DNA from: Clostridiales bacterium
GTDB taxonomy: Bacteria; Bacillota; Clostridia; Christensenellales; CAG-138
Direction: 5' to 3'
DNA: 43,014 nucleotides
NCBI GenBank assembly: GCA_013824375.1
Contig: PNNR01000051.1
Coordinates: 1 to 43,014 of the forward strand
In this document: piece after piece, positions 30,279 through 31,037 of the stretch
Layout: every line of letters starts with the position of its first letter
Numbering within the stretch: the stretch's first letter is position 1
Translations under genes and position numbers: made by a program
The notes under the pieces: generated by a model
The model's input: only the letters and a program-made list of their open reading frames with translations
Told to the model about the DNA's origin: nothing
The model's database searches: none

Positions 30279-31037
30279 ATGAAAAAGAACCTGTTGATCG
30301 CAAGCAACAACGTCTTGGACGCAAGAGGAATTGAAGCCGGGTTTCAATCGCTGAATGAGATCCGTCTCCTTCCAAGCGTTTTCACGGGAAGGGAAGCGAT
30401 CGAAACCATATTGGCGCGTGATGTAAATATACTGATTCTTGATTTGTTTCTAAATGACCTAGATGGCATCAGTGTGCTGGATTTCATCGGTAAGCTTGGT
30501 GAAGACAGACGCCCGCTTGTATTTGTGACTACCGCTCTGGCAGACGATCGTCTGCTTCATATCATAAAAGACCGCGTAATCTATTGTTTCACCAAGCCGC
30601 TGAAATATGATCTCGTACAGCTTCGCGTGCTGGAGTTTATGCGCCTCTATGAGCGCGAAACAGAAAAGGCGGACGAAGTTGTGGACATCCTCGAAAGCCA
30701 GATCGCGGCGGGCATACGAGCAATCGGCGTACCCGCACATCTGAAAGGTTATTACTATCTGCGGGATGCGATTCGCATCTACGCCATGAGCGAATCACCC
30801 GTGGATTTGAGCATCACCAACGACATCTATCCGACCGTTGCAAAGATCTACAACACGCGCCCTCCGCTTGTTGAACACGCGGTGCGAAACGCGATCGAAA
30901 TCGCATGGACGCGCGGCAACTCGGATACGATCCGTGAGTATTTCGGTTATACGGCCAACGACTACAAAGGAAAACCCAGCAATTTGGAATTTGTCGCTAT
31001 GATGGCACAACGCGCACTGACCTATTTGAAACGGTAA
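30279..31037 (+). CDS. spo0A: Spo0A-family response regulator (divergent)
   Basis: Receiver with [18 protein letters not shown], FTKPL; Spo0A-type C-terminus [17 protein letters not shown]...[43 protein letters not shown]...[14 protein letters not shown]. Confidence 0.92.
   Translation: [252 protein letters not shown]

Follow-up and report, generated by a model that had tools for sequence, protein, structure and literature searches.

In bacilli and clostridia the phosphorylation of Spo0A is described as the key switch in a passage of PMC3533761, and reviews treat it as the universal gate to sporulation. The specificity of Spo0A has been described as conserved across the phylum (PMC6136694), and the Bacillus subtilis protein contacts G2, C4 and G5 of TGTCGAA (PMC3485338). 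In receiver domains the DD pair binds the divalent cation coordinating the phosphoryl group. Receivers without key active-site residues are termed pseudo-receivers, the switching mode of which is mostly unknown; about 80% of them have a non-acidic DD2 and about 20% a non-acidic DD1 (PMC12632262). The word Spo0A is absent from the main text of this review, and no report of a natural D56E Spo0A, of a pseudo-receiver Spo0A or of loosened Spo0A phosphorylation throughout a family was found in the open-licence literature.

The window analyzed in this study, a stretch of 43,014 nucleotides, is contig C3 of a 1.26 Mb genome bin that is 59.6% complete. Its close relatives, among them Christensenella sp. 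UBA7703 and Firmicutes bacterium HGW-Firmicutes-9, are likewise bins of bacteria without exception uncultured, and the order is probably Christensenellales. The open reading frame at 30279..31037 (+) encodes a Spo0A-family regulator of 252 amino acids, identified by Pfam, TIGR02875 and its position in the tree, and is the sole full-length Spo0A in this bin. Pfam, AlphaFold2 and Foldseek placed a receiver in front of a Spo0A_C domain. The latter (residues 138-252; 30690..31034, +) matched its Pfam model with 109 bits (E 1e-31) and was also supported by Foldseek and by matches to PDB chains. The receiver-like domain (residues 1-122; 30279..30644, +) scored 28.6 bits against Response_reg, just below the cut-off of 30.2, and the TIGR02875 Spo0A score of 159.7 bits was below the equivalog cut-off of 200. 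The AlphaFold2 model of the protein (mean pLDDT 91.6) predicted an intact (beta-alpha)5 fold for the receiver. In Foldseek searches with this model, the best matches included the Spo0A DNA-binding domain structures 1fc3 and 1lq1, and the close ones the Spo0A receivers 1qmp and 5wq0. In the model, which comprises one chain only, both domains are joined by a continuous single helix spanning residues 110-149, possibly a rigid dimer stalk that would replace the flexible hinge.

Residues were numbered by alignment to a sequence taken to be that of B. subtilis Spo0A, stretches of which match PDB chains 9phz and 1lq1. The B. subtilis motif KVCVADDN reads NLLIASNN in the window protein. Hence, Ser and Asn (codons 9-10; 30303..30308, +) replace the Mg2+-binding pair D10-D11. 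The acceptor Asp (codon 55, D56 in B. subtilis; 30441..30443, +), the Thr (codon 85, T86; 30531..30533, +) and the Lys (codon 106, K108; 30594..30596, +) are kept, with LVLD, LTAF and ILKP changed to LILD, TTAL and FTKP, respectively. In B. subtilis numbering the five sites are therefore S10 N11 D56 T86 K108 in the window protein versus D D D T K. Both the replacement of the acidic pair and the retention of the other three residues had been pointed out in the preliminary description, and both held in the genus: D10S and D11N are identical in six congeners, and all seven genus members with the gene share the S-N-D-T-K quintet; the intact DD-D-T/S-K quintet is absent from them. A further change had been overlooked. 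The aromatic switch residue F105, which couples Y and T, is Cys in 7/7 genus members (codon 103; 30585..30587, +). Among the sequences compared, S10-N11 is confined to the genus, and Cys at position 105 also occurs in six Spo0A-like proteins of the family outside the genus. Cys103 is located near the active-site Lys, and a role as thiol sensor would be purely speculative. With a receiver fold lacking at least one of the five catalytic residues, as judged from the alignment and the AlphaFold2 model, the protein fits the published definition of a pseudo-receiver (PMC12632262).

The genus was represented by eight genomes, the home bin and seven congeners, four of which are 92-94% complete, and the gene was found in seven. 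The Spo0A proteins of six congeners are 81-93% identical to the window protein and agree with it at all pocket and helix changes. Synonymous sites are near saturation among these genes (pS 0.58-0.90). The ratio of mean dN to mean dS, with pairs of undefined dS omitted from the latter, is 0.056 for the receiver and 0.035 for the DNA-binding domain. Purifying selection on the genus Spo0A is strong in the receiver and in the DNA-binding domain alike. Because the same residues recur in six congeners at near-saturated synonymous sites, the changes represent neither error nor decay. A decaying sporulation leftover turning into a pseudogene would fit a genus without the sporulation genes tested, but is very improbable, since a mean dN/dS of about 0.04 at near-saturated dS contradicts decay. 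Furthermore, the reading frame is open in all seven genus members and the ribosome-binding site is conserved, a Shine-Dalgarno-like GGAGAA (30270..30275, +) with its GGAGA core kept in 7/7. The dN/dS ratios, the intact frames and the identity across independent congeneric genomes rule out a pseudogene, chance and an assembly error.

Synteny places recN (28338..30044, +) upstream and deoB (31243..32439, +), the conserved downstream neighbor at this locus, behind spo0A. The order recN-spo0A-deoB is kept and spoIVB is missing from the locus, whereas in relatives spoIVB follows recN in the order recN-spoIVB-spo0A. The recN-spo0A gap, where spoIVB would lie, measures only 234 bp. Comparison of the spo0A-deoB gap within the genus revealed a T-rich, terminator-like stretch as the sole recurring element. 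A search of 61 genomes of the order (home bin and 60 relatives, a sample and not a census) found Spo0A_C matches in 56, many with two or more full-length Spo0A-like proteins. In the tree these form clade A (SH-aLRT 91 for its branch; 96, 98 and 100 for the starred inner groups) and the likewise starred clade B (support 100). Clade A genes, among them the window gene, are fast-evolving and in most cases located between recN (plus spoIVB) and deoB. Clade B is a relocated copy with the canonical invariant helix SKVERAIRH. Members of the window genus possess clade A only. The window gene is thus the old paralogue that remained at the ancestral recN-spo0A-deoB position. L211, N218 and Cys105 also occur in part of the clade A proteins from family members with sporulation genes, indicating that part of the divergence predates the loss of sporulation. 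In G023 (L062; 94% complete), a family member that encodes SpoIVA, SpoIVB and SASP, the sole Spo0A is a clade A protein with G-E-D-A-K at the five sites.

The losses in the receiver bear on how the protein may be controlled. Sister clade A proteins have lost different subsets of the five residues, which suggests a relaxed need for phosphoryl chemistry, and the loss of the Mg2+-binding acids together with the aromatic switch points away from activation by an ordinary histidine kinase or phosphorelay. All seven genus members nevertheless have D55, T85 and K106, a pattern that a continued role of phosphoryl chemistry would predict, and some metal binding by Ser or Asn side chains or water is still conceivable. 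An unconventional but working response regulator, in which D55 is phosphorylated under the control of a kinase and Ser9, Asn10, Asn11 and water provide weak or altered metal binding, would agree with the invariance of these three residues and of the ASNN motif in 7/7 and with the purifying selection on the receiver. We consider it unlikely, as both acids are lost, the Y/T-coupling aromatic residue is Cys, and the sister proteins differ in what they have lost. Furthermore, DD2 binds the metal directly, and normal receivers invariably have acidic DD residues (PMC12632262). The Spo0E-like phosphatase (PF09388) was detected in 0/61 genomes of the order by a search that does detect it in B. subtilis, and is thus of no use as a discriminating marker of phospho-control.

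SpoIVA, SpoIVB and SASP were found in 0/8 genus genomes. For the sigma-G-like factor, the genus matches listed were all RpoD-like with about 125 bits, compared to 370-470 in most other family members. Full-length SpoIIE is absent from the genus, which showed weak phosphatase-domain matches only. Most family members outside the genus keep SpoIVA, SpoIVB, SASP and the sigma-G-like factor. As the home bin is 59.6% complete, the statements on absence rest on the congeners. A second canonical Spo0A, which the preliminary description had named as evidence against its view, was looked for in the bin and the seven congeners; no second full-length Spo0A was found there. Since the genus is without every sporulation marker tested, there is indirect evidence that the window Spo0A does not start sporulation. 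Sporulation with genes too divergent to be detected, which would make the window protein a real sporulation Spo0A, finds some backing in G023, where a clade A protein with a broken pocket is the only Spo0A beside SpoIVA, SpoIVB and SASP. This is hardly credible for the window genus, because all five markers escaped detection in 8/8 genomes in the same searches that match most family members.

The recognition-helix segment (residues 196-204; 30864..30890, +), as aligned to B. subtilis, is not conserved. At the positions compared, the window protein has P210 L211 E213 H214 R217 N218 versus S R E R R H. Hence, S210P, R211L, R214H and H218N are changed and E213 and R217 are kept, which agrees with the altered helix reported earlier. 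No sequence compared from outside the genus has the combination P210-L211-H214-N218. We take residues 211, 213 and 214 to make the base contacts to the 0A box. From the altered helix a changed DNA target had been proposed. In favor of this, two or three of the residues presumed to contact bases are replaced; against it, a perfect 0A box TTTGTCGAA is located upstream of spo0A, with its core in two congeners. A changed target is, judged from the sequence, plausible but unproven. The box (30061..30069, +) begins 16 bases past the end of recN and may be a site of autoregulation. By chance it is expected 0.62 times in the whole 43-kb window and thus about 0.003 times in the 234-bp gap. G003 and G002 have the TTGTCGAA core at the corresponding position; it was not found in the four other genus members, whose gaps are shorter or different.

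It is quite possible, if somewhat short of an even chance, that the target of the pseudo-receiver is unchanged and that it still binds 0A boxes, repressing or activating its own gene. The exact box behind recN, its core in the two congeners and the retained E213 and R217 speak for this. R211L, R214H and H218N affect presumed box contacts, the site is absent from four congeners, and exact 0A boxes were not enriched over the reversed control in four genomes (55/47, 54/41, 46/51 and 37/53), which removes a canonical 0A-box regulon from consideration in these genomes. Tandem 0A boxes with 10-bp spacing upstream of spo0A were also rejected, as G000, G003 and G002 have the second half-site at a distance of 9 bp. 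The TTGTCGAANNNTGTC pattern had one match across the eight genomes. The genus also encodes a free-standing Spo0A_C protein of about 110-130 amino acids without receiver and with a KPARIERNVREEIKAIW helix (G003 C7, L051:5446-5802; equivalents in G001, G002 and G004-G007). In G003 its gene lies next to those for a glycyl radical enzyme, the corresponding activase and an apparent iron-type alcohol dehydrogenase. This protein may be a constitutive 0A-box binder, and it could be the actual user of the box in place of the window protein.

Receiver degeneration was found across the family, clade B with its canonical DNA-binding helix included. Among 25 clade B proteins of the family, D11 is lost in 17 (G or S), D56E is found in 10 and D56V in 1, and K108 is present in all. 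The ten genomes with D56E (G010, G016, G017, G020, G022, G027, G028, G029, G031 and G034) carry sporulation genes. Two further cases, G045 and G054, belong to other families of the order. SASP was not detected in G034, G045 and G054, and SpoIVA is partial in G034. Parsimony on the clade B tree required position 56 to change 5 times and D11 6 times. In pairs of D56E genes the receiver shows weaker constraint than the DNA-binding domain, yet is not free of it (dN 0.08-0.34, dS about 2 or undefined). Of the 26 family genomes in which SpoIVA and SpoIVB both occur, 15 lack an identified full-length Spo0A-like protein that combines acid-acid-D-T/S-K, and 8, including G021, lack any copy with the acceptor Asp; these counts are to be read in view of genes missing from bins, of fragments among the Spo0A_C matches and of the uncertain alignment of the most divergent copies. 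G021 (94% complete) encodes SpoIVA, SpoIVB, SASP and a sigma-G-like factor and has no Spo0A_C match; either the gene is missing from the bin or sporulation proceeds without Spo0A. We tentatively suggest that entry into sporulation in this family, as predicted from gene content, may no longer depend on Spo0A phosphorylation. The master regulator of such putative spore formers would be permanently phospho-mimicking or otherwise gated, and the window genus would be a lineage that abandoned sporulation while its pseudo-receiver Spo0A was retained for other tasks.

For the window protein itself, a pseudo-receiver Spo0A that is kept for a role outside sporulation and is not switched by ordinary Mg-dependent phosphorylation is the probable explanation. 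The receiver is probably retained as a module for dimerization, ligand binding or partner binding. DNA binding would then either be constitutive and regulated through protein abundance, or depend on a ligand or partner. D55, T85 and K106 may have been retained for structural reasons, for example for a D55-K106 salt bridge, and the protein may control vegetative or stationary-phase genes, perhaps with spo0A itself among them. Control that is independent of phosphorylation or triggered in another way, as suggested earlier, hence remains the best-supported reading; the lack of sporulation markers in the genus, the old paralogue clade and the family-wide degeneration had all been missed. The observation of a divergent Spo0A is confirmed, and the window gene stands at one extreme of a family in which the dependence of Spo0A on phosphorylation seems to have loosened generally. 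If true, a family in which most of the examined genomes with sporulation genes have no complete phosphorylation site in any identified full-length Spo0A would be a natural experiment in the replacement of a gate, and a genus keeping a pseudo-receiver Spo0A after the loss of sporulation reveals possible other roles of the protein. The presence of spo0A is an unsafe marker of sporulation in metagenome bins.

Spo0A of B. subtilis and Clostridioides difficile (TIGR02875) shares with the window protein the receiver-linker-Spo0A_C order, the fold, the recN-linked locus, D56/T86/K108, E213 and R217. The window protein differs from both by the missing acid pair, F105C and the helix positions 210/211/214/218, and its genus by the absence of spoIVB from the locus and of sporulation genes. 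Retention of spo0A without sporulation is also known from sporulation-loss lineages (PMC3533761; PMC8340488), for which the portions of these sources considered here report presence or absence and describe neither receiver degeneration nor a conserved pseudo-receiver form. With bacterial pseudo-receivers (PMC12632262) the protein has in common a recognizable receiver fold without active-site residues that is under selection; it differs in that neither DD residue is kept, in contrast to D, T and K, and in that the output domain is Spo0A_C. Aspartate-less receivers such as RitR (PMC4395418) likewise are regulators without a normal phosphorylation pocket. Unlike RitR, the window protein is not aspartate-less, since the acceptor D55 is kept in 7/7 genus members, whereas its ten clade B relatives, by virtue of D56E, do fit this group.
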